A DNA stretch of 64,000 nucleotides from Rhodopseudomonas sp. BR0M22 (GTDB lineage: Bacteria > Pseudomonadota > Alphaproteobacteria > Rhizobiales > Xanthobacteraceae): the NCBI RefSeq assembly GCF_010907035.1, contig NZ_QUMK01000025.1, forward strand, positions 1 through 64,000. The letters run 5' to 3'. The position numbers and the translations under genes were made by a program. Below the pieces are notes generated by a model. It made no database searches. It was not told the DNA's origin and saw only the letters and a program-made list of their open reading frames with translations. This document shows, in pieces, positions 30,623-40,429 of the stretch (its first letter is position 1; each line of letters starts with the position of its first letter).

Positions 30623-31414
30623 TCAGTGCACCGCGATGATGACGTGATCGGCTTCGAAGGTGACGGCCGCCTCGCCGTTCTCCACGATTCCGAGATCTTC
30701 GGCATCTTGGCGCGGGACCACCGCAACGATGGTCTTGCCGCCGCCGATGTCGAGGTTCACTTCCGAGTGGACTTCGGCGTCGACCCTGCGCTTGACGATG
30801 CCGCGAAACACATTGCGGCGCAGCCTCGACGCTTCATCGGGTGCGACGAGGCGCACGAACGGCGCCTTGATCAACGCGAGCGCCTTGCGGCCGGGGGCGA
30901 GATCGAGCTGTTCGGCGGCGGCGTTGGTGATCGTCGCATGGATGGTGTGGTCGTCGGACACTTTGAGCTCGACTTCGACATCGACCGGCCAGCGCCGGAC
31001 GTTGACGACCTCGACGATGAACTTGTTGCGTGCCGAGACCTTGAAGCCGCTCGCCCACAGCAGCGCGTCGCCGATTTCCTCCAACCCTTCTTCGGCGATC
31101 AGCGTCGAGATCTTCGTCAGATGTTCTTCGAGCCGGTGGAAGACGGTGATCAGCCGCCGCCCCTCCGGGGTGATGTCTGCAGCGCCGCCGACGCGGCCGC
31201 TCGTCCGCGTCAGGAACGCGGGCGTCGGCAGCAGATTGTTGATGGCGTCGACGGCTTCCCAGGCGGTTTTGTAGCTCAGGCCCATCGCTTTGGCGGCCTT
31301 GCTGATGCTGCCGTGTTCGGCGACGGCCTCGAGCAGGTGGATGCGGTCGCGGCCGGCCAGAAGACGCCCGCCGCTCCGCAACACCAGATATGCGTCGATC
31401 TTGTTGTTTGTCAT
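30623..31414 (-). CDS. modE: ModE molybdate-responsive transcriptional regulator
   Basis: A 263-residue ModE: an N-terminal winged HTH (about 15-115, with HGSISKAAKAMGLSYKTAWE) and two C-terminal TOBE/Mop domains (about 122-190 and 195-262; SARNKF, NVFRGIV) that bind molybdate. Molybdate-bound ModE represses uptake genes and can activate molybdoenzyme genes. It is the last gene of a co-directional run that includes an ABC importer, and faces dorA. ATG 31414 is used; a GTG four codons upstream is possible. A GGGCGC/GCGCCC hairpin lies in the 52-base gap with dorA. Confidence 0.92.
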   Translation of the reverse strand: MTNNKIDAYLVLRSGGRLLAGRDRIHLLEAVAEHGSISKAAKAMGLSYKTAWEAVDAINNLLPTPAFLTRTSGRVGGAADITPEGRRLITVFHRLEEHLTKISTLIAEEGLEEIGDALLWASGFKVSARNKFIVEVVNVRRWPVDVEVELKVSDDHTIHATITNAAAEQLDLAPGRKALALIKAPFVRLVAPDEASRLRRNVFRGIVKRRVDAEVHSEVNLDIGGGKTIVAVVPRQDAEDLGIVENGEAAVTFEADHVIIAVH

Positions 31415-31530
31415 CGCTCGTGCCACGGGTCGCTAGCCGCCGGCTAACCTAGGCGATCCGGTCTCGATACGAAAGCGCACGGGGGACAGAGCCAAAGCCA
31501 GTCATGCCGATCGCATCACCGGCATCGCAA

Positions 31531-32067
31531 TCAGGCGGCGGCGGACTGGCGCTGTGCGGCGAGTGCGATGAACCAGGCAACGACAGCGTCGGCAGTGGCA
31601 GGTAGCATCGTCCAGTCTTCGGCCGCGAACGCGATCCAGCCCGGCAGCATGCTGCGCTCCACAGCAACCAGTGCCGGAACGTCTTGCGCGAGGGCCAGTC
31701 CAATCTCTTCGCGGATGCCGCGCCCGGCGATCTCTTCCTTGGCGAATCGGCCGAAGAACACCAGGTCGGGCCGGCCGGCGATCGCTTCGGCCAGACGCAC
31801 CCGCGCGGCCGCGAGGCCATCCGCGCTCAGGATGCACGAGGTCGAACCCGATCCGAGATCCAGAGACAACGCGACCGAATCGCCGCGAGCGATATCGTCG
31901 AGCCAAAGCGAGGCGCGGCCGTTGGAGTGGCGCGGTCCGAGCCGCGGCACCAGCCCGGCGATACGAACGTCCGGCAACTCGACAAGGCGATCGCGCGCGG
32001 CGGCCAAAATCTGCTCGAGCGAATCGCCGGCCTGGTAGACCATCACGGCGAGAGGAAGCGGGGCCAT
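31531..32067 (-). CDS. DUF2478-family protein, molybdenum-linked
   Basis: A 178-residue protein that I assign to DUF2478 from its start (PLPLAVMVYQAGDSLEQIL) and its pattern of conserved segments (LDLGSGSTSCILSADGLA, FGRFAKEEIAGRG). Such proteins are often annotated as molybdenum-related and sit beside molybdate transport genes; the biochemical role is unknown. A classical Walker A is not evident. Start MAPLPLAVMVY is chosen. It lies 23 bases after the importer ATPase gene and 116 bases before modE, all on the minus strand. Confidence 0.7.
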   Translation of the reverse strand: MAPLPLAVMVYQAGDSLEQILAAARDRLVELPDVRIAGLVPRLGPRHSNGRASLWLDDIARGDSVALSLDLGSGSTSCILSADGLAAARVRLAEAIAGRPDLVFFGRFAKEEIAGRGIREEIGLALAQDVPALVAVERSMLPGWIAFAAEDWTMLPATADAVVAWFIALAAQRQSAAA

Positions 32068-32090
32068 TGGTCGGGTCTCCTTGAGCTGAG

Positions 32091-32879
32091 TTACCGGGGC
32101 GGCGGCTGATCGCATCGCGTGACGACGCGCCGTCCCATCGCGGTCGTCTCGATCGCGAGGTCGAGGCCATACAGCTTGCGCAGCCGTTCCGCGGTCAGAA
32201 CCTCGTCGACCGGCCCGACCTCGACGCGCTGCTCGTGGCCGAGAATCATAACACGATCGGCGATCGCAAACGCGTGCTCGGGTTCGTGGGTCGACACCAG
32301 CAGCGACAGGCCGCGCGCCGACAGCGCCCGAATCTGGTCGAGCAAGCCGAAGCGGTTGCCGAGATCCAGACTGGCGGTGGGCTCGTCCATGATGATCAGT
32401 TCGGTATCCTGCGTCAGGGCGCGGGCGATCAGCATCAATTGCCGCTGACCGCCGGAGATGCGGTCGGCGGATCGGTCGGCGATGTCAGCGATACCAAGCG
32501 CCTCCAGGGCGCGCCAGGCCGCAGCATAATCGTCGCGGCCGGGCGACGCGAACAGACCGAGCCGCGCGGTTCGGCCCATCACCACGATATCAAGCACGGT
32601 ATGGGTGGGATCGCCCTGGTAGGCTTGCGGAACATGCGCGATGCGGCGCGCGATCTGCTCCGGGCGGAGCGTCGAGATATCGTGACCGCCGATGACGATC
32701 CGGCCGCGCAGCGGTGGCAGAATCCCCAGCACGGTCTTGAACAGCGTGGTCTTGCCGACACCGTTCGGCCCCATCAGGCAAGTGATGCTGCTGCCCGACA
32801 GAGCAAGGTCGATTCCTTCGGCGAGCGGCTGGCCGTCATAGCCGATCGCGACGCCGTGGAGCACGAGGCGTTTGGTCAC
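32091..32879 (-). CDS. ABC importer ATPase, FecE/BtuD type (candidate molybdate/tungstate)
   Basis: A 262-residue ATPase: Walker A GPNGVGKTT, Q-loop in HVPQAYQG, signature ISGGQRQLM, Walker B IIMDEPTASLDLG and switch His in VSTHEPEHA. It powers the adjacent FecCD-type permease. Start GTG 32879 is set by a GTGA overlap with the permease stop; the longer open frame is an artefact. Importers of this type carry siderophores, cobalamin or, as in H. influenzae MolABC, molybdate and tungstate. The modE and DUF2478 neighbours favour the last. Confidence 0.87.
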   Translation of the reverse strand: MTKRLVLHGVAIGYDGQPLAEGIDLALSGSSITCLMGPNGVGKTTLFKTVLGILPPLRGRIVIGGHDISTLRPEQIARRIAHVPQAYQGDPTHTVLDIVVMGRTARLGLFASPGRDDYAAAWRALEALGIADIADRSADRISGGQRQLMLIARALTQDTELIIMDEPTASLDLGNRFGLLDQIRALSARGLSLLVSTHEPEHAFAIADRVMILGHEQRVEVGPVDEVLTAERLRKLYGLDLAIETTAMGRRVVTRCDQPPPR

Positions 32880-33898
32880 TCGCGCCTCCACAGCGAACGA
32901 GATCCCCGCCGCGTCATCAGCCAGACGAACAGACCGCCGCCCACCAGGGCGGTCAGCACGCCGATCGGAATCTCGATCGTTGCGGCGGTGCGGGCGATGG
33001 TGTCGACCACCACCATGAAGGCCGCGCCGATCAGAATCGACACCGGCAGCAACCGGTCGAAGCGCGGCCCGACCAGGAGCCGGGCGAGATGTGGCACCAT
33101 CAGGCCGACCCAGCCGATGATGCCGGAGATCGCGACGACGCTCGCGGTGATCAACGTCGCCGCGACGATGACGATCTGCCGGGTGCGGCGGACATCGACG
33201 CCGAGTGCACGCGCGTCGTCGTCGCCGCAGGACAGCACGCTGATGCGCCAGCGCAGCAGGAACAGCGGGATCATGCCGACCGCGACCGTCGGCGCGACGA
33301 CTGCGATGTCGTCGGGCCGGATGCTGGCCAGGCTGCCGAGCAGCCAATAGGTGATCATCGGCAGTTGCGCGTAAGGGTCGGCGACGATCTTCACCAGCGA
33401 AATCGCCGCGGCCGCGAGCGCGCCGACGACGATGCCGGACAGCACCAGCATCAGGATATCGCCGCGCTGTCGCAGCGACCACGCCAGCGTCACGACCAGG
33501 ATCACCGTCAGCGATCCGCTCACGAAGCCGAGCGCTTCGATCATCACCACCGGCAGCCCGAACAGAATGCCGATGACGGCGCCGAAGCCCGCGCCCTGCG
33601 AAACGCCGAGGATGTCCGGAGACACCAGCGGATTGCGGAACAGACTTTGATAAGCCGCGCCGGCGGCCGACAACGCTGCGCCGACGCAGATCGCCGCGGC
33701 AATGCGCGGCAGCCGCACCTGAAACAGCACCGCCGCGATCTGCTGGTCGATGTGGCCACCCCCGATCCTCGCCATGATCGCCGCAACAACGTCGCCCGGC
33801 GCAATGCGATACGGCCCGATCCCGGCGGCGATCACCACGACGACCAGCAGCAGCATGGCAAGGCCGGCGACGACCGGCGTGACGCGCAGGATCGGCAC
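32876..33898 (-). CDS. ABC importer permease, FecCD/BtuC type
   Basis: A 340-residue inner-membrane permease with about ten hydrophobic helices. FecCD family hallmarks include QVRLPRIAAAICVGAALSAA, AAYQSLFRNPLVSPDILGVS (core shown) and GWVGLMVPHLARLLVG. It should act as a homodimer with two ATPases. I use GTG 33898, which begins just after the binding-protein stop (TGAGGTG); an ATG 51 bases upstream would overlap that gene and is less likely. It has ATPase overlap of 4 bases downstream. Confidence 0.86.
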   Translation of the reverse strand: MPILRVTPVVAGLAMLLLVVVVIAAGIGPYRIAPGDVVAAIMARIGGGHIDQQIAAVLFQVRLPRIAAAICVGAALSAAGAAYQSLFRNPLVSPDILGVSQGAGFGAVIGILFGLPVVMIEALGFVSGSLTVILVVTLAWSLRQRGDILMLVLSGIVVGALAAAAISLVKIVADPYAQLPMITYWLLGSLASIRPDDIAVVAPTVAVGMIPLFLLRWRISVLSCGDDDARALGVDVRRTRQIVIVAATLITASVVAISGIIGWVGLMVPHLARLLVGPRFDRLLPVSILIGAAFMVVVDTIARTAATIEIPIGVLTALVGGGLFVWLMTRRGSRSLWRRE

Positions 33899-33899
33899 C

Positions 33900-34949
33900 T
33901 CAGCGACGAAGCCCTTCGAGGAGCCTGTCGAGATCGGCGTCCTGCACATCGACCTGATAGAACAGACGATAGAAGTCGCGCAGTTCGGTCTTCAGATCGA
34001 ACGTTGCCTGCGCCGGATAGAGCGCGTGCAGCAGCAGCGGCAGACCGATCAGCCGGTTGAGCGAAGGCGGCAGGTCGATCGTGCCGAACGGCTGGTTCGG
34101 CAGCAGAAATACCCGCTTGTTCCGAACCGCCGGGACCGGCTGCCACTCGGGACGGCTCATGATCAGATCCCGCACGGCGGGATCGATCGTGATGATCGTA
34201 TCCGGCGCCCAGCCGATCACATGCTCGGGCGACACGCGCGCGAGCCCGCCAGCCTCGCGGATGCCTTCGACGACATTGACGGCGCCGACCCGCTCGATGA
34301 TCTCGGTATTGATCGAGCCACGCGATCCCGTTTCGAAGCCGTCATTGCCGCGCGCGAGATAAATGCGCGGACGCGACGCTTCGGGCACAGTCGCAACCAC
34401 ACGGTCGACTTCGGCGAAGATCGCCTCGCTGGCTTTGGCTAACTCCTCACCGCGCGCGCTCACCCCGAGGATCTGCGCGAGCAGCCGGATCGCAGCGGGC
34501 GTGTTTTCGAAGCGACCGTCGATCAGGACGTAGGGAATCCCGGTCTGCGCCTGAATGCGGTCGGCAATCGAGCGATAGGTCTCGTTGACCGATCCGAGAT
34601 CGATGATGAGATCCGGCTTCGCGGCCATCAATCGCTCGGCGCTGATGGTATCGCCGCGCCCGGTCAGCCGGCCGAGTTCGGGAACATCGCGGACCATCGG
34701 CAGCAGGAACGGCTTGTCGATGTCGCGTGGCGCGCGGCCCCAGCCGATCATCTTTTCGGGCGCGACCACATAGAGAAAGATCCCCGCGGGCGGCCCCGCA
34801 GCGAACACGCGGGTAATGGTGTCGGAAACCTCGACGCGGCGGCCCACGGAGTCCGTCACGGTGCGCGCATGCGCGTCAGGCGCGCATGCGGCAAAGATCA
34901 ACATCGTGAGCGCAAGCAGGCCCCCCAGACGTCGGGCAGGTCCGATCAT
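33900..34949 (-). CDS. ABC importer periplasmic binding protein, FecB/BtuF/MolA type
   Basis: A 349-residue protein with an N-terminal hydrophobic segment ([18 protein letters not shown]), which may be a Sec signal cut after AHA or an imperfect lipobox at AAC. The periplasmic-binding fold has two lobes; motifs include [30 protein letters not shown] and [11 protein letters not shown]. Ligand is unknown: metal chelates or oxyanions are usual in the family. The ATG overlaps the TrmO-like stop in an ATGA. Importer order binding protein-permease-ATPase is conserved. Confidence 0.86.
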
Positions 34950-35479
34950 CGCCGCGGCTCGCCGACCTGGAAGTCGCCCGGCTTCGGCGGCGCCAGCGGC
35001 ATGAATTCGGCGCGGTCCGGCTTCAGATCGACCAGCGGCGTGCCGTCCAGACAATCGAGTCCGCGCACGAACAAATTGGCGCCGTCGCGGCGGTCGACAC
35101 GGGCGATCGAGGTGCCGATCGGATTCGGCCGCAGCGGCGAGCGGATCGAAAACGTGCCGCGCGCGTCACCGTCATTGCGCGGACATTGCAGCAGCAGATC
35201 GCGCCGCGACCGATGCAGCCAATAGAACACTTCGAGCAATGTGCCGTCGTCGATGCCGGCGAGAGCCGGCAGCCAGGTCTCGAACACCTCGATTCGACAA
35301 ACCGGACCATCGGCACGGCCGTGGCGGGGGCACTCCTCCAGCCTGTTCCACGGCGTGTGAATGCGGCCGATGAAGACCACGCCGGCGTCGGGGCTTCCCG
35401 ACCAATCTGAGGCGAGTTCGCCAGCTCGGATGTCGTCGGTCGCGCCCATGTCTCGGCTCACATGCCCTTTGCTGCCCAT
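34946..35479 (-). CDS. TrmO/TsaA-domain protein (tRNA methyltransferase-like)
   Basis: A 177-residue protein with the TsaA/TrmO fold: [50 protein letters not shown] and [15 protein letters not shown]. TrmO uses SAM to N6-methylate t6A37 in tRNA. It heads a transport operon for a metal or oxyanion and overlaps the binding-protein gene by ATGA. Stand-alone TsaA-like proteins occur near molybdenum genes, so a role other than tRNA modification is possible. The first ATG is used; a Met ten codons later (35449) may be the real start. Confidence 0.8.
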
Positions 35480-35513
35480 CGAGAGGTCTCGACGAAGGTA
35501 AGAGCATAATCAG

Positions 35514-35527
35514 TTATATGTATATAA
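35514..35527. promoter_or_regulatory. TTATAT-GT-ATATAA palindrome, candidate ModE operator
   Basis: A perfect 6-2-6 inverted repeat in a GC-rich genome, 35 bases before the TrmO-like start and overlapping its likely promoter (minus-strand TATAAC, TATGCT). TATAT-rich half sites are a feature of ModE operators, and modE is in this same operon. Assignment is a hypothesis. Confidence 0.4.
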
Positions 35528-35629
35528 AAGAAACAAGCTCGACCTTCGACTAGCGGGGACGGCCGACGGTCACACGCCCATCCTTCGCTAGCGACGCCAG
35601 CTCGCGATCACGCGATCGCCCCCGACATA

Positions 35630-35645
35630 GTTGCAGAAATGCAAC
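35630..35645. promoter_or_regulatory. GTTGCA-GAAA-TGCAAC palindrome
   Basis: A perfect 6-4-6 inverted repeat in the middle of the divergent gap. It could be an operator for a metal-responsive repressor. I cannot assign it to a known box. Confidence 0.35.
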
Positions 35646-35774
35646 GTATGGCACCAAAAATACCCGCTTCCGGCCGTTTCGGCACACCCAATTACCGAAT
35701 TGCTTAACGTCCAGGCACTTGCGCGCGAACTGACCGATTTTGCCCATTGCGGTCCGCAAAGCGGCCAGCGCAGA

Positions 35775-35799
35775 TATTGTATGTAAATGGTTTATACGA
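35775..35799. promoter_or_regulatory. A+T-rich imperfect palindrome, second candidate ModE-type site
   Basis: On the minus strand the site reads ATCGTATAAACC then ATTTACATACAAT. TATA and TACAT half sites with this layout resemble ModE boxes as I recall them. It lies about 280 bases before the receptor start, so it would fit if transcription begins near 35810. It also shares CCATTTACAT with the dor promoter. Confidence 0.3.
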
Positions 35800-36079
35800 T
35801 TGTGACATCGTGATGGCTTTCCCAGAATTTCTGCCGGCCACGGGAGCGACCTGTCGCTCGGCACGCGGGGATCCGGCGACGCTCCAGATCGGTCTCTTCG
35901 CCCCGACAACCCAGCACGATGACGCGTTTGCCGCGGAATCGTCGCGTCTCGATCGCGCGACGCTCGATCGGATCGGCCGGAGCACCGACATCACGACACC
36001 AGTATCGCCGGCGGCCGACCAAGGACCGCGGCGCTTCTCGTTTTCCGACGCAAAGGGGCGTCGTTCACAGGGGGCAAGA

Positions 36080-38263
36080 ATGAAACGAGTGAGCCAGCTG
36101 AGCATCCTGCTCGCGAGCGCGGCGACGATGACGTCAGTCGACGCGGCACGAGCGGGCAACGAAGGCGTCTATGAATTGGGGACGATTCATGTGACCGCGG
36201 CAGGCGCCAACTCGTCGGAGTTCAACAACTTCGGCGGCAGCACGGTCTCCAACCAGCAGACCGAGCGTTTCGACAAACACACGCTCGACCGGGCGATCGA
36301 CCTCGTTCCGGGCGTGGCCGCAGGCACCACCGGCAGCCAGCGCAACGAGACCAACATCTATATTCACGGCTTCGACCGGCTGCAGGTGCCGCTGTCGATC
36401 GACGGCGTGCGCATTTATCTTCCCGCCGACAACCGGATCGATTTCTCGCGCTTCCTCACCGACGACATCTCCGAGATTCAGATCGCCAAGGGCTACGTCT
36501 CGGTGCTCGACGGTCCGGGCGGCCTCGGCGGCGCCATCAACCTGGTGACGAAGAAGCCGGTGCGGCCGATCGAAGGCGAATGGCGCTCGCAAGCCGAGTT
36601 CGGCAACGGCGGCCGGTTCGACGGCTTCCGCAATTACGGCCGGGTCGGCGGCCGGCAGAACGACTATTACTTCCAGGCGAGCGCGAGCTGGCAGAAGATC
36701 GACGGCTGGGAGCTGCCGTCGAGCTTCACGCCGACCGTGAACGAAGACGGCGGGCGGCGCGACTTTTCGTCGTCGAACGACTGGAGCGTCAACCTGAAAG
36801 CCGGATGGACGCCGAATCCGGAGGACGAATACTCGATCAACTTCATCCGCCAGAACGGCCGGAAGGGCGCGCCCTACAACGTCGAGCCGACGTCGTCGCA
36901 GAAATACTGGTCGTGGCCGTATTGGAACGTGCAGATCCTGTCCGCGGCGACCAAAACGGCGATCGGCGACGACGCCTACGTCAAGACGCGAACCTTCTGG
37001 GAGACGTTCGACAACGCGATCGACATGTGGGACGACGCCGCGCAGACGCTGCGCTATTCGAGCAGCGCGTCCCGCTCGATCTATCAGGACTGGGCGATCG
37101 GCAACACGATCGAGGTCGGCAAGGATTTCGGCCAACTCGACACGCTGAAATTCGCCACCCATGTGCGGCGCGACAATCACTCCGAGTGGAACGAACTCTA
37201 TACCGACAGCTACGGCCTGAACGGCACGACGACACCGAAAAGCAAGACCTGCGCCACCACCAAGACGGCCAACTTCAATTGCTTCGACGAACCGGCCCAG
37301 ACCTCGACCGAAGACACTTATTCGGTCGCGACCGAGAACACCGTCCATTTCGGACCCCAGATCGACTGGGTGCAGGGCATCAGTTACGATTGGCGCCACA
37401 TCAGTAAGGCCGAGGAGTATGTGCTCGGGCAAGTCAGCAAGTCGGTTTACTACCAGCCGTACTGGATCAATTACCCGCTGAGCGATTCCTCGGCGCTGAA
37501 TTGGCAGACCGCGGCGGTCTGGCGCTATTCGGAGACCGCCAAGGTATTTGCGAACATCTCCGACCGCACCCGCTTCCCGACGCTGTTCGAACGGTTCAGC
37601 TCACGGTTCGGCACCGGCGCCTCGAATCCCGGCCTGGCGCCGGAGCGCGCCATCAACTACCAGATCGGCTGGACCAACGCATTCGCGCCGAAGAGCCAGA
37701 TTTCGATCCTCGGCTATTACGCCACGGTCGAGAACATGATGCAGTCGGTCGCCACCGGCCGGAGCTACACCGACCCGATCTCCGGCAAGGTCTCGGCGAT
37801 CACGCAATACCAGAACGTCGGCGACGGCTACCGCTACGGCGTCGATTTCGCCGTCGATTACGCCTTCACCCCAACACTGATTGCGGGCGGCAACATTTCC
37901 TACATTCACAACACGCTCACCAATCCGATCGACCCGTCGATCCAGCAGACCGGCATTCCGACCGTGAAGGGCATGCTCTATGCGAGCTACAGCCCGGTCG
38001 AAGGACTGACTCTGACGCCGAACGTGACCTACGCGGACGAACGCTGGTCGCAGAAGACGGAGGTCATCAGCAACAAATCGGTCTCCAGCTACGTCAAGAC
38101 CGGCGCCTATGTGCTGGCCAACTTCGCCGCTGATTACAAGGTGCGCGAGAATTTCACCGTGTCGGGCGGCGTGAAGAACATCTTCGACAGGGATTACCAG
38201 CTCGCCTGGGGTTATCCGGAGCCCGGCCGCACGTTTTACGTCGGCTTCAAGGGCACCTTCTGA
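36080..38263 (+). CDS. TonB-dependent outer-membrane receptor
   Basis: A 727-residue beta-barrel receptor. A signal peptide (MKRVSQLSILLASAATM...ARA) is followed by a TonB-box-like segment (GTIHVTA), a plug domain (about 45-160, with DRAIDLVPGVAAG and GGLGGAINLVTKKP) and a barrel ending in Phe (YVGFKGTF), the usual outer-membrane signature. No N-terminal STN signalling domain is present. The substrate is unknown: it imports something scarce and large or tightly bound, such as a metal chelate. Dedicated ExbB, ExbD and TonB genes follow at once, and the divergent operon contains modE. ATG 36080 follows a purine-rich GGGGGCAAGA. Confidence 0.9.
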   Translation: MKRVSQLSILLASAATMTSVDAARAGNEGVYELGTIHVTAAGANSSEFNNFGGSTVSNQQTERFDKHTLDRAIDLVPGVAAGTTGSQRNETNIYIHGFDRLQVPLSIDGVRIYLPADNRIDFSRFLTDDISEIQIAKGYVSVLDGPGGLGGAINLVTKKPVRPIEGEWRSQAEFGNGGRFDGFRNYGRVGGRQNDYYFQASASWQKIDGWELPSSFTPTVNEDGGRRDFSSSNDWSVNLKAGWTPNPEDEYSINFIRQNGRKGAPYNVEPTSSQKYWSWPYWNVQILSAATKTAIGDDAYVKTRTFWETFDNAIDMWDDAAQTLRYSSSASRSIYQDWAIGNTIEVGKDFGQLDTLKFATHVRRDNHSEWNELYTDSYGLNGTTTPKSKTCATTKTANFNCFDEPAQTSTEDTYSVATENTVHFGPQIDWVQGISYDWRHISKAEEYVLGQVSKSVYYQPYWINYPLSDSSALNWQTAAVWRYSETAKVFANISDRTRFPTLFERFSSRFGTGASNPGLAPERAINYQIGWTNAFAPKSQISILGYYATVENMMQSVATGRSYTDPISGKVSAITQYQNVGDGYRYGVDFAVDYAFTPTLIAGGNISYIHNTLTNPIDPSIQQTGIPTVKGMLYASYSPVEGLTLTPNVTYADERWSQKTEVISNKSVSSYVKTGAYVLANFAADYKVRENFTVSGGVKNIFDRDYQLAWGYPEPGRTFYVGFKGTF

Positions 38264-38316
38264 CCGTGTGAACGCAAGCAGGCCCTGCTCCGGCGGGGCC
38301 TGCGACGGAGAATTCG

Positions 38317-38955
38317 ATGCACGACGTCTCGCTGACGCCCACCGCGGTGTTCGCCCAGGCCGGGCCGGTCGTCAAAACCGTGCTGATCCTGTTGCTCGCG
38401 GCATCGATCCTGACCTGGGTCTGGATCGTGGAAGCGGTGGTGGCGTTCATGCGGCTGTCGGCTGCACTCCGCCGCAGCCGCGACGGCGACGACGCCACCA
38501 TCCTCGCCGCTGTCTCGGCCGCAGGTGCGGCGGCACGCGAGGCGTCGCCGCGCGGCACGAGCGAAGCCGACCGCCGGGCAAAAATCGTCGACGCAATGAC
38601 CCGAGCTGCACGCGACCTGGTCCTGAAGGCCGAAGGCGGGCTACCCAATCTGGCGATCGTGTCCTCGGTCGCGCCGTTCGTCGGCCTGTTCGGGACGGTG
38701 TGGGGAATCATGACGAGCTTCGCCGGCATTGCCGAAGCCCGAGACACCAGCCTGGCCGTGGTCGCTCCCGGTATCGCCGAGGCGCTCGCGGCGACCGCGT
38801 GGGGACTTGCGGCCGCGATTCCGGCGTCGATCGGGTACAACCGCATCGGCGCACTGTTCAACAGGACCGCAATCGCGCTCGACGATTTCGTGCAGGCAGA
38901 GGCCGAGCGCCTGACCGGAGCGGAGCTCGAGCGCCCCTCCGCGAGATCCCGGTAG
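38317..38955 (+). CDS. exbB: ExbB-like proton-channel subunit
   Basis: A 212-residue MotA/TolQ/ExbB-family protein. A hydrophobic helix is near 18-42, followed by a cytoplasmic domain, then helices near 105-135 (VSSVAPFVGLFGTVWGIMTSF) and 140-170 (EALAATAWGLAAAIPAS). It forms the inner-membrane motor with ExbD that energises TonB. It starts 53 bases after the receptor gene and is followed by exbD after 12 bases. Confidence 0.9.
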   Translation: MHDVSLTPTAVFAQAGPVVKTVLILLLAASILTWVWIVEAVVAFMRLSAALRRSRDGDDATILAAVSAAGAAAREASPRGTSEADRRAKIVDAMTRAARDLVLKAEGGLPNLAIVSSVAPFVGLFGTVWGIMTSFAGIAEARDTSLAVVAPGIAEALAATAWGLAAAIPASIGYNRIGALFNRTAIALDDFVQAEAERLTGAELERPSARSR

Positions 38956-38967
38956 GAGCGCCGCCTC

Positions 38968-39435
38968 ATGGGCGTTCTCGAAGCGATGCGTTCTCGGGGC
39001 AGCGAGCTGCGCCCGCAGGCGGACATCAACGTCACGCCGCTGGTCGACGTGATGCTCGTGCTCCTCATCGTCTTCATGGTGACCGCGCCGATGCTGACCG
39101 CCGGCCTGCCGGTCGATCTGCCGAAAGCCGCAACTGCACCTCCGCTCGAGCGATCCGAGCCGATCGTCGTCACGCTCGATCGCGACGGCAACGTCCAGCT
39201 CGGCGACACCGGCGTCGCAGTGGACGGGCTCGGCGATGCCATCCTGACGCTAACCGCCGGCGACCGAACGCGCGCCGTCCATATCCGCGCCGATCGCGAA
39301 TGTCGGCACGGAGCGGTGGTGGCGGTGCTCGACCAACTCGGCGCCCACGGCCTGTCCCGCGTGGCGATCCTGACCGAGCGCGCCCCTGGCGGCCGCGCGC
39401 CGCGTCACGACGACAAACCGCGCGATCCGAGATGA
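38968..39435 (+). CDS. exbD: ExbD-like motor subunit
   Basis: A 155-residue ExbD/TolR protein: short cytoplasmic N-terminus, one TM helix (about 24-44) carrying the proton-path Asp27 (TPLVDVMLVLLIVFMV), and a periplasmic domain. The C-terminus (ERAPGGRAPRHDDKPRDPR, abridged) is basic. It shares an ATGA overlap with the tonB gene that follows. Together with ExbB it uses the proton gradient to move TonB. Confidence 0.9.
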   Translation: MGVLEAMRSRGSELRPQADINVTPLVDVMLVLLIVFMVTAPMLTAGLPVDLPKAATAPPLERSEPIVVTLDRDGNVQLGDTGVAVDGLGDAILTLTAGDRTRAVHIRADRECRHGAVVAVLDQLGAHGLSRVAILTERAPGGRAPRHDDKPRDPR

Positions 39436-40238
39436 CGGAGCCGACTCCGGCGCTGACACCCGGCGGACGGCTTGTGCTGCTCGGCGCGGTCGCCGCCTGT
39501 CACGCGATGATATTCCTGCATTGGGCGGCGACGCCGTCGGCGCTGGCGACTGAGACGCCGATGGAGGTGACGATCATCGCGGCCGGCGAAGCGGCGATCG
39601 ATATCCCCAAGGCCGTCGCGGCGCCGGCGCGGCGTTCGCAGCCCGAACCGCCCGAAAGCTCTCCAACGCTCAACGAACCGGCGCACACCAACGATCAGCC
39701 GCCCTCCCCCGAACCTTCCCCGGCCATTGTCGAAACACCGCAATCCCCCATCCGGGTCGAGACCTCGGCGAAGCCGAACCGGCCGCAGCCATCGCGACCG
39801 GATAAGCGTCACGACAAGAGAGACCACAAGCACATCGCCGCACCGGCTCGCCCGGCCTCGCGCCCCGCAGCCGCGACCTCCGACGACACCGGCGATTCCG
39901 AGATATCACGCGTCCGGACGCGCATGGGTGCGGACACCGGACAGCAGACATCGACCGCCACGTCCCGGGCGAGCTACGCAGCGCTGGTGGTCGCCGAATT
40001 CAATCGCCGCAAGGTGTATCCGGAATCCGCGCGCCAGACCCGCCAGCAGGGTACGGCTTCACTGTCGTTCGCGATCGGGGCGTCCGGCAAAGTGATCAGC
40101 TACAAAATCACCCGCTCGACCGGCAACGAAGCGCTCGACCGCGCAATCGATTCGATGATGAAAACCGCCCAACCACCCCCGCCGCCGGACGGGCTGTTTC
40201 GCGGCCATTTCGTCGTGCGCTTCTCGCTGAACGATTGA
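39432..40238 (+). CDS. tonB: TonB-family energy-transducing protein
   Basis: A 268-residue protein: N-terminal anchor (about 12-38), a Pro/Ala/Glu-rich then Lys/His-rich periplasmic linker (about 60-150), and a C-terminal TonB domain with RKVYPESARQTRQQGTASLS and FRGHFVVRFSL. It spans the periplasm to touch the TonB box of the receptor two genes upstream. A dedicated tonB with exbBD argues that the receptor is a specialised system rather than one served by the global TonB. The start is ATG 39432, overlapping exbD. Confidence 0.88.
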   Translation: MTEPTPALTPGGRLVLLGAVAACHAMIFLHWAATPSALATETPMEVTIIAAGEAAIDIPKAVAAPARRSQPEPPESSPTLNEPAHTNDQPPSPEPSPAIVETPQSPIRVETSAKPNRPQPSRPDKRHDKRDHKHIAAPARPASRPAAATSDDTGDSEISRVRTRMGADTGQQTSTATSRASYAALVVAEFNRRKVYPESARQTRQQGTASLSFAIGASGKVISYKITRSTGNEALDRAIDSMMKTAQPPPPPDGLFRGHFVVRFSLND

Positions 40239-40339: not shown

Positions 40340-40429
40340 TGGCGGAGAGGGAGGGATTCGAACCCCCGATAGGCTTGCACCTATGCCGCATTTCGAGTGC
40401 GGTGCATTCAACCACTCTGCCACCTCTCC
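40340..40429 (-). tRNA. tRNA-Ser (anticodon CGA)
   Basis: Reading the minus strand gives a class II (long variable arm) tRNA. The acceptor stem GGAGAGG pairs with CCTCTCC, with discriminator G and an encoded CCA. The anticodon loop CTCGAAA gives CGA (serine codon UCG), and the T arm contains GGTTCGAATCC. It marks the right-hand end of the TonB block; I see no integrase or attachment duplicate nearby. Confidence 0.93.

Follow-up and report, generated by a model that had tools for sequence, protein, structure and literature searches.

A TonB-dependent receptor, a MolA-type importer and a ModE paralog form a probable molybdenum (possibly tungsten) uptake system in Rhodopseudomonas

Molybdate is usually assumed to cross the outer membrane of Gram-negative bacteria through porins. 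In Haemophilus influenzae, MolBC-A (HI1470-1472), a FecBCD-like ATP-binding cassette (ABC) importer with a MolA-group binding protein, is described as importing molybdate with low affinity (PMC4031551). A similar importer is encoded in the purple photosynthetic alphaproteobacterium Rhodopseudomonas sp. BR0M22 (5.29-Mb genome), within a 64,000-nt stretch of contig NZ_QUMK01000025.1 that is hereafter called the window. While the excerpt on MolBC-A mentions no dedicated outer-membrane receptor (PMC4031551), the window links the importer to a TonB-dependent receptor (TBDR), ModE, a DUF2478 protein and a TrmO-like gene. In 2015, the annotation of Azotobacter chroococcum noted a TBDR (Achr_39300), “potentially for molybdate”, which lies with an ABC transporter next to modG, modE and modABC (PMC4465626). 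A TonB-dependent receptor of this kind has thus been proposed in print before, as an annotation remark on a gammaproteobacterial gene that is likened to the window receptor by description, and the excerpt gives no evidence for its substrate; in the openly licensed literature, this passing mention was the only one found of a TonB-dependent molybdate system. TBDRs are known for other metals, such as the zinc receptors of the Caulobacter Zur regulon, which are under the control of a metal-sensing repressor (PMC4176598), and the copper transporter OprC, the nearest solved fold; the window receptor differs from these in its linked regulator, ModE, and in its proposed metal, molybdenum (Mo) or tungsten (W). 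In Pseudomonas aeruginosa, a dedicated outer-membrane route for molybdate was proposed, involving the type VI secretion system, ModA and IcmP, but it relies on a secreted ModA and an outer-membrane metalloproteinase, and the available part of its molybdenum account contains no TBDR (PMC8602904). Within the literature searched, the comparative evidence presented below is new: a single clade of receptors, together with a subfamily of ModE and with ModE boxes that occur in several families.

The locus consists of two divergent units separated by a gap of 600 bp, an importer operon on the minus strand (35479 to 30623) and a receptor unit on the plus strand (Table 1). Judged by comparison with related loci, these units probably form a two-membrane uptake system for Mo, or possibly W. 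In such a system, the TBDR, powered by its own ExbB-ExbD-TonB, would carry a Mo/W species, most likely a chelate, inwards across the outer membrane, and the MolA-type binding protein would hand this species, or an oxyanion freed from it, to the FecCD permease and its ATPase. The local ModE paralog would sense cytoplasmic molybdate and repress both units when Mo is sufficient, while DUF2478 and the TrmO-like protein may be accessory, whether they handle the Mo species, release it or modify it. The initial annotation had placed ModE and DUF2478 in one operon with a FecBCD-type importer, and domain matches confirmed these genes at their places; the operon also includes a TrmO_N-domain gene that had been missed, which overlaps the start of the binding-protein gene, and the receptor start was corrected to the ATG at 36080. 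The Mo/W reading proposed there is supported by independent comparisons, which show ModE boxes on receptor relatives, ModE beside receptors that have no such importer nearby, and an importer family accompanied by Mo/W genes.

The receptor carries the plug and barrel domains of a TonB-dependent transporter and has partner ExbB-ExbD-TonB genes. In a phylogeny of 63 receptors, a single clade (SH-like approximate likelihood ratio test, 100) took in 35 of the 36 candidate rows and was separate from the genome's 27 other TBDRs; the remaining row, L054, is unrelated to this clade. A relative of the receptor was found in 16 of 149 genomes of the family, including that of the window, and the other 15 loci were compared. 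In five of these orthologous loci (L160-L163 and L170), the immediate neighbour of the receptor is ModE or its helix-turn-helix (HTH) part, and in three more (L158, L159 and L166) it lies in the same cluster. It is worth noting that ModE adjoins the receptor even without a nearby importer of this family (L161-L163). A class-wide search at E 1e-100 retrieved 3 of 385 genomes, the window's included, a threshold too strict to gauge the spread of the receptor.

Promoters were scored with the E. coli ModE consensus box (PMC545781) over 14 positions, with spacers of 8 and 9 nts (N8 and N9) and a threshold of at least 12/14; the N9 spacer was added after Rhodovulum was seen, and the controls were scored by the same rule. 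The 40 promoters comprised 34 from outside the genus and 6 from Rhodopseudomonas sisters. Six of the 40 (L087, L170, L210, L215, L218 and L220) belong to receptors left off the tree, the L170 receptor contains a stop codon, for L161-L163 the promoter scored was that of the operon's first gene, and L051/L158 and L066/L160, which can each name one contig, were each counted once. A box of at least 12/14 was found 5′ of the receptor or its operon in 24 of the 34 relatives outside Rhodopseudomonas, compared with none of the 27 other TBDRs of the genome, which did not exceed 10/14; the control regions ended at the plug domain and were up to 1000 bp long, or less near a contig edge, while those of the clade were at most 600 bp. 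A leave-one-out position weight matrix (PWM) agrees with the consensus count for N8 boxes. By gene neighbourhood and predicted operators, the receptor clade is linked to ModE across several families, in Hyphomicrobiales and Rhodobacterales.

The importer combines a MolA-group binding protein, a FecCD permease and an ATPase, as in the MolBCA type, a group that also includes iron binders. The profile of the binding protein matches MolA (E 1e-30) well above BtuF (2e-11), and its score against the BtuF equivalog model is 33.9 bits for a cut-off of 234. Its predicted structure (mean predicted local distance difference test score, pLDDT, 90.9) has 4pag as best fold match (Z 36.9), followed at close scores by 4ovk (29.2) and others including MolA (3psa, 27.7). 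Hence, the modelled structure fits molybdate, which is no proof of molybdate.

Relatives of the binding protein were found in 38 of 297 genomes of the order. The importer-family sample consisted of 80 of 468 confirmed relatives from a named genome collection, with flanks of up to 10 kb, and 4 plasmid loci, making 85 loci with the window, some of which end at contig ends. Genes were mechanical open reading frames, all grouped by single linkage without prior labels, and one representative labels each cluster. Besides the permease and ATPase, the commonest partners were TrmO_N (35 loci, window included), SBP_bac_11 (21), TBDR (16), a single TOBE/Mop (15), PBP_like_2 (13), the MOT1 molybdate transporter family (11), HTH+PBP_like (9) and molybdopterin oxidoreductases (7, window included); the TBDR count includes the window, L054 and L068, a fragment left off the tree. 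Other clusters of like size were permeases, a LysR regulator, an aldehyde dehydrogenase and some that are unlabelled. The SBP_bac_11 representative scores above the NCBIfam cut-off for molybdate-binding proteins, and that of PBP_like_2 is best matched by TupA, under the TupA cut-off. Two molybdopterin oxidoreductases were examined, one being above the cut-off for the formate dehydrogenase alpha subunit and the other resembling formate dehydrogenase and nitrate reductase, under every cut-off. A Mo/W marker (a cluster member of ModA, TupA-like, Mop, MOT1, HTH-PBP, ModE, DUF2478 or molybdopterin oxidoreductase) lies within 10 kb in 42 of the 84 loci other than the window, a figure that has no matched background. 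ModE boxes occur 5′ of the importer operon in 15 of 83 loci; among control upstream regions drawn from the same loci, which may include true boxes of other Mo genes, 7 of 307 have one. By this gene context, the importer family is a Mo/W family. Tungstate is possibly the substrate, because TupA-like and formate-dehydrogenase-like neighbours accompany importer relatives.

Within the genus, an orthologous binding protein (at least 72% identity), a second TrmO copy and the receptor share one distribution, each being present in 7 of the 16 Rhodopseudomonas genomes and always together. Because of this co-occurrence, the gene set is, as far as comparison of genomes can tell, a real unit and not a chance arrangement. 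The order ModE, DUF2478, ATPase, permease, binding protein, TrmO and divergent receptor is common to all seven loci, except that an acyltransferase-type gene lies between ModE and DUF2478 in L159. Among the matches listed, the closest named locus is that of Rhodopseudomonas pseudopalustris DSM 123, with 75% identity in the binding protein.

Several observations weigh against a dedicated Mo/W system. No canonical ModE box was found in the window or in the six sister loci (seven Rhodopseudomonas promoters), and neither the window nor these sisters have the ModE regulon box CGNTATATA-N6-TATATANCG upstream of the genes. Outside the genus, 10 of the 34 relatives scored under 12/14 (L090, L105, L212, L213, L217, L220, L215 and L218, the last two at 11, and the L161 and L162 operons, in which weaker N9 dyads are present). 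The receptor is divergent from the importer and followed by its own ExbB-ExbD-TonB, as had been annotated, but these genes were matched 3′ of the receptor in only three of the seven Rhodopseudomonas loci, so that a private TonB set is not conserved. Similarly, the molybdoenzyme that had been pointed out next door is present as a TorA/BisC-type gene, but the sisters that reach far enough (L158, L207, L208 and L209) have none beside ModE, while L159 and L210 extend too little beyond ModE for a firm call; the TorA-like neighbour was therefore set aside as support. The genome also holds modEABC and a second ModAB-like set. In the importer family, 33 of the 84 loci lack both a TBDR and any scored Mo marker. 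The receptor model (mean pLDDT 81.3) best matches the copper transporter OprC, then siderophore receptors, at about 15% identity. Furthermore, iron-labelled proteins match the binding-protein profile (4hn9, E 4e-25; YiuA, 2e-22) and its fold (Z 28.8 and 25.5, respectively, vs 27.7 for MolA); because some of them score nearly as well as MolA, neither profile nor fold decides the substrate.

The missing canonical box might be explained by the local ModE itself. This protein has a LysR-type HTH and tandem Mop domains with the molybdate-binding SARN and KAP motifs, which it shares with E. coli ModE. It is above the cut-off of the Mop domain model (105 vs 55 bits) and below those of ModE_repress (84.5 vs 98.5) and of the E. 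coli equivalog (147 vs 369). It shares 55-80% identity with the six other receptor-linked ModEs compared and 40-41% with the genome's modABC-linked ModE; the receptor-linked ModEs form a divergent subfamily (55-83% among themselves, 40-45% to modABC-linked ModE). In three Rhodopseudomonas receptor-linked ModEs, the wing reads TSGRVGGAA, instead of GGR(K/T)GGGA or GGKAGGGA in the others. This altered wing might account for a changed operator, and regulator and operator may have changed together in Rhodopseudomonas. Lineage-specific ModE signals are on record, for example in Desulfovibrio (PMC545781).

Elsewhere in the genome, canonical boxes are found at Mo genes (C94:13378, C95:35004 and C87:5623), with a further N9 box 5′ of modE; the genome scan gave five sites in all, two of them at C69 and C92, and a reversed control pattern gave one. 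The box-bearing Mo neighbourhoods contain DUF2478, modEABC, a ModD/NadC-like QRPTase and the ModAB-like set. In the divergent promoter region of the window, TATATGTA-type elements recur with variation at one or both promoters in most sisters, as judged by eye and not clearly in L209. The degenerate dyad of this region reaches a PWM score of 15.2, which none of 300 block shuffles equalled. It was not retained as a ModE box, because it matches only 10/14 positions, like the best controls, and is not conserved in the sisters. L159/L210 have a dyad in which the outer CG is now CA/TG.

The iron-like features of the transport proteins could also mean that the locus serves ordinary siderophore or corrinoid uptake, with ModE and DUF2478 as accidental neighbours. 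The protein families are FecBCD/BtuCDF-like, the binding protein has iron binders among its nearest relatives, and the generic models with the highest scores are mostly iron and B12 ones, all of them under cut-off, with 80 bits for the receptor against the BtuB equivalog (cut-off 599.7) and 110 bits against the siderophore-receptor subfamily TIGR01783 (cut-off 223.5). However, an accident hardly agrees with ModE boxes on receptor relatives in several families of Rhodobacterales and Hyphomicrobiales or with ModE beside the receptor even where the importer is lacking. In addition, a search of the window and seven relatives reported no cobalamin riboswitch, and the intergenic region holds only poor Irr-like (7/12) and Fur-like (10/18) matches, as found with crude patterns (that for Fur from PMC545781). 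Siderophore or corrinoid uptake is regarded as very improbable.

Control by ModE would also be expected if the substrate were another metal or metallophore needed under Mo shortage, for instance vanadium or iron to supply alternative nitrogenases. An AnfG/VnfG gene is present in the genome of the window, and in the family sample such genes occur in 4 of 16 receptor-bearing genomes vs 3 of 133 without the receptor. Within the genus, however, no such association is seen (3 of 7 genomes with the receptor, 5 of 9 without), and the Mo/W markers around half of the other importer loci speak against another metal. The link to alternative nitrogenases is weak, and we consider this alternative unlikely.

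Several loci show other arrangements of the receptor clade. A di-haem (MauG/CCP-like) peroxidase or di-haem oxidoreductase lies beside clade-family receptors, replacing the importer, in L167-L169, L171, L214 (plasmid pCMU01), L217, L213 and L220; ModE boxes are found at L167-L169, L171 and L214 and none at 12/14 in L213, L217 and L220. L160 (167-11430) is a dense Mo cluster with the importer, ModD (above the TIGR01334 cut-off), ModE-HTH, two DUF2478, DUF364 (putative heavy-metal chelation), the receptor and ModE. In L163 (8485-13195), two clade receptors in tandem are followed by ModE, and 5′ of them lies an SBP_bac_6-type binding protein that has an N9 ModE-like box. In L216, a plasmid of Bartonella sp. 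HY328, a clade receptor and a FecBCD-type importer are divergently oriented, and an N9 ModE-like box (13/14) is present.

The box-bearing receptors that have a di-haem peroxidase and no nearby importer (L167-L169, L171 and L214) would suit a receptor for a Mo-linked organic molecule, such as a pterin or a Mo-bearing natural ligand complex, which the MauG-like peroxidase would process. This scenario sits poorly with the MolA-type importer found beside the receptor in the window, in its sisters and in the Rhodobacterales loci compared, and we rate it the least probable of the alternatives.

Accessory roles for DUF2478 and the TrmO-like protein would accord with the preferred two-membrane Mo/W system. 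The TrmO-like protein is nearly identical to RPA0152 (PDB 3okx) and scores just under the TIGR00104 TrmO equivalog cut-off (90.1 vs 93.25 bits), and another TrmO_N copy is present in all 16 genomes of the genus. Three near-invariant cysteines of the Mo-linked copies were considered as a special metal site, which was dropped since 14 of the 16 other TrmO_N copies of the genus have two of the three as well. To judge from at least three further copies in the genome located beside modEABC or ModE boxes (G000 C95 and C87; L131 and L156), DUF2478 seems to belong to the Mo regulon in general. One of these further DUF2478 genes is accompanied by a ModD/NadC-like QRPTase and an ArsC-family gene.

The features of the locus are collected in Table 1. 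The adjoining genes encode a TorA/BisC-type S/N-oxide reductase, a TorC-like cytochrome and a chaperone-type (PF02613) protein. A tRNA gene lies at 40343-40429, just past the TonB end of the cluster; since the cluster is found in 7 of 16 genomes of the genus, it is a possible island boundary.

Table 1. Positions of the genes and promoter elements of the candidate Mo/W uptake locus in the window
Feature	Position	Strand	Basis
TBDR, 727 aa, proposed Mo/W (chelate or oxyanion) receptor	36080..38263	+	Pfam Plug and barrel; clade; ModE boxes on relatives
ExbB-type energiser	38317..38955	+	PF01618
ExbD-type energiser	38968..39435	+	PF02472
TonB protein	39432..40238	+	PF03544
TrmO-like (YaeB/UPF0066) stand-alone S-adenosylmethionine-methyltransferase domain	34946..35479	-	PF01980
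Periplasmic binding protein, MolA/4pag group	33900..34949	-	PF01497 (Peripla_BP_2); profile and fold matches
FecCD-type permease	32876..33949	-	PF01032
ABC ATPase, FecE-type	32091..32879	-	PF00005
DUF2478 protein	31531..32115	-	PF10649
ModE paralog, receptor-linked subfamily	30623..31426	-	HTH_1 and two TOBE/Mop domains; SARN and KAP motifs
Divergent promoter region	35480..36079	.	TATATGTA-type elements 35513-35527 and 35775-35798; degenerate dyad 35623-35646

The initial annotation had also suggested scavenging at very low level, which is weakened by the presence of modEABC and the second ModAB-like set and by the low affinity of the homolog MolBC-A (PMC4031551). For the same reasons, chelated Mo best accounts for a third importer that is coupled to an energised receptor. 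A more far-reaching proposal, which we offer tentatively and with less conviction, is that a widespread alphaproteobacterial clade of ModE-controlled TBDRs imports Mo chelates made by the cell itself or by its neighbours (“xenomolybdophores”), that a dedicated ModE subfamily has, in Rhodopseudomonas, changed its wing and operator, and that the TrmO-like enzyme methylates the ligand and not tRNA. The question of molybdophore receptors becomes open to direct test, since one gene of the cluster has an almost identical and already named copy in R. palustris (RPA0152). A ModE-linked TBDR clade in Hyphomicrobiales and Rhodobacterales would mean that many bacteria of soil and water, nitrogen fixers among them, power and regulate the entry of Mo through the outer membrane, and that Mo may be stored or exchanged in chelated form. 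The system would represent a little-known microbial means of scavenging scarce Mo.

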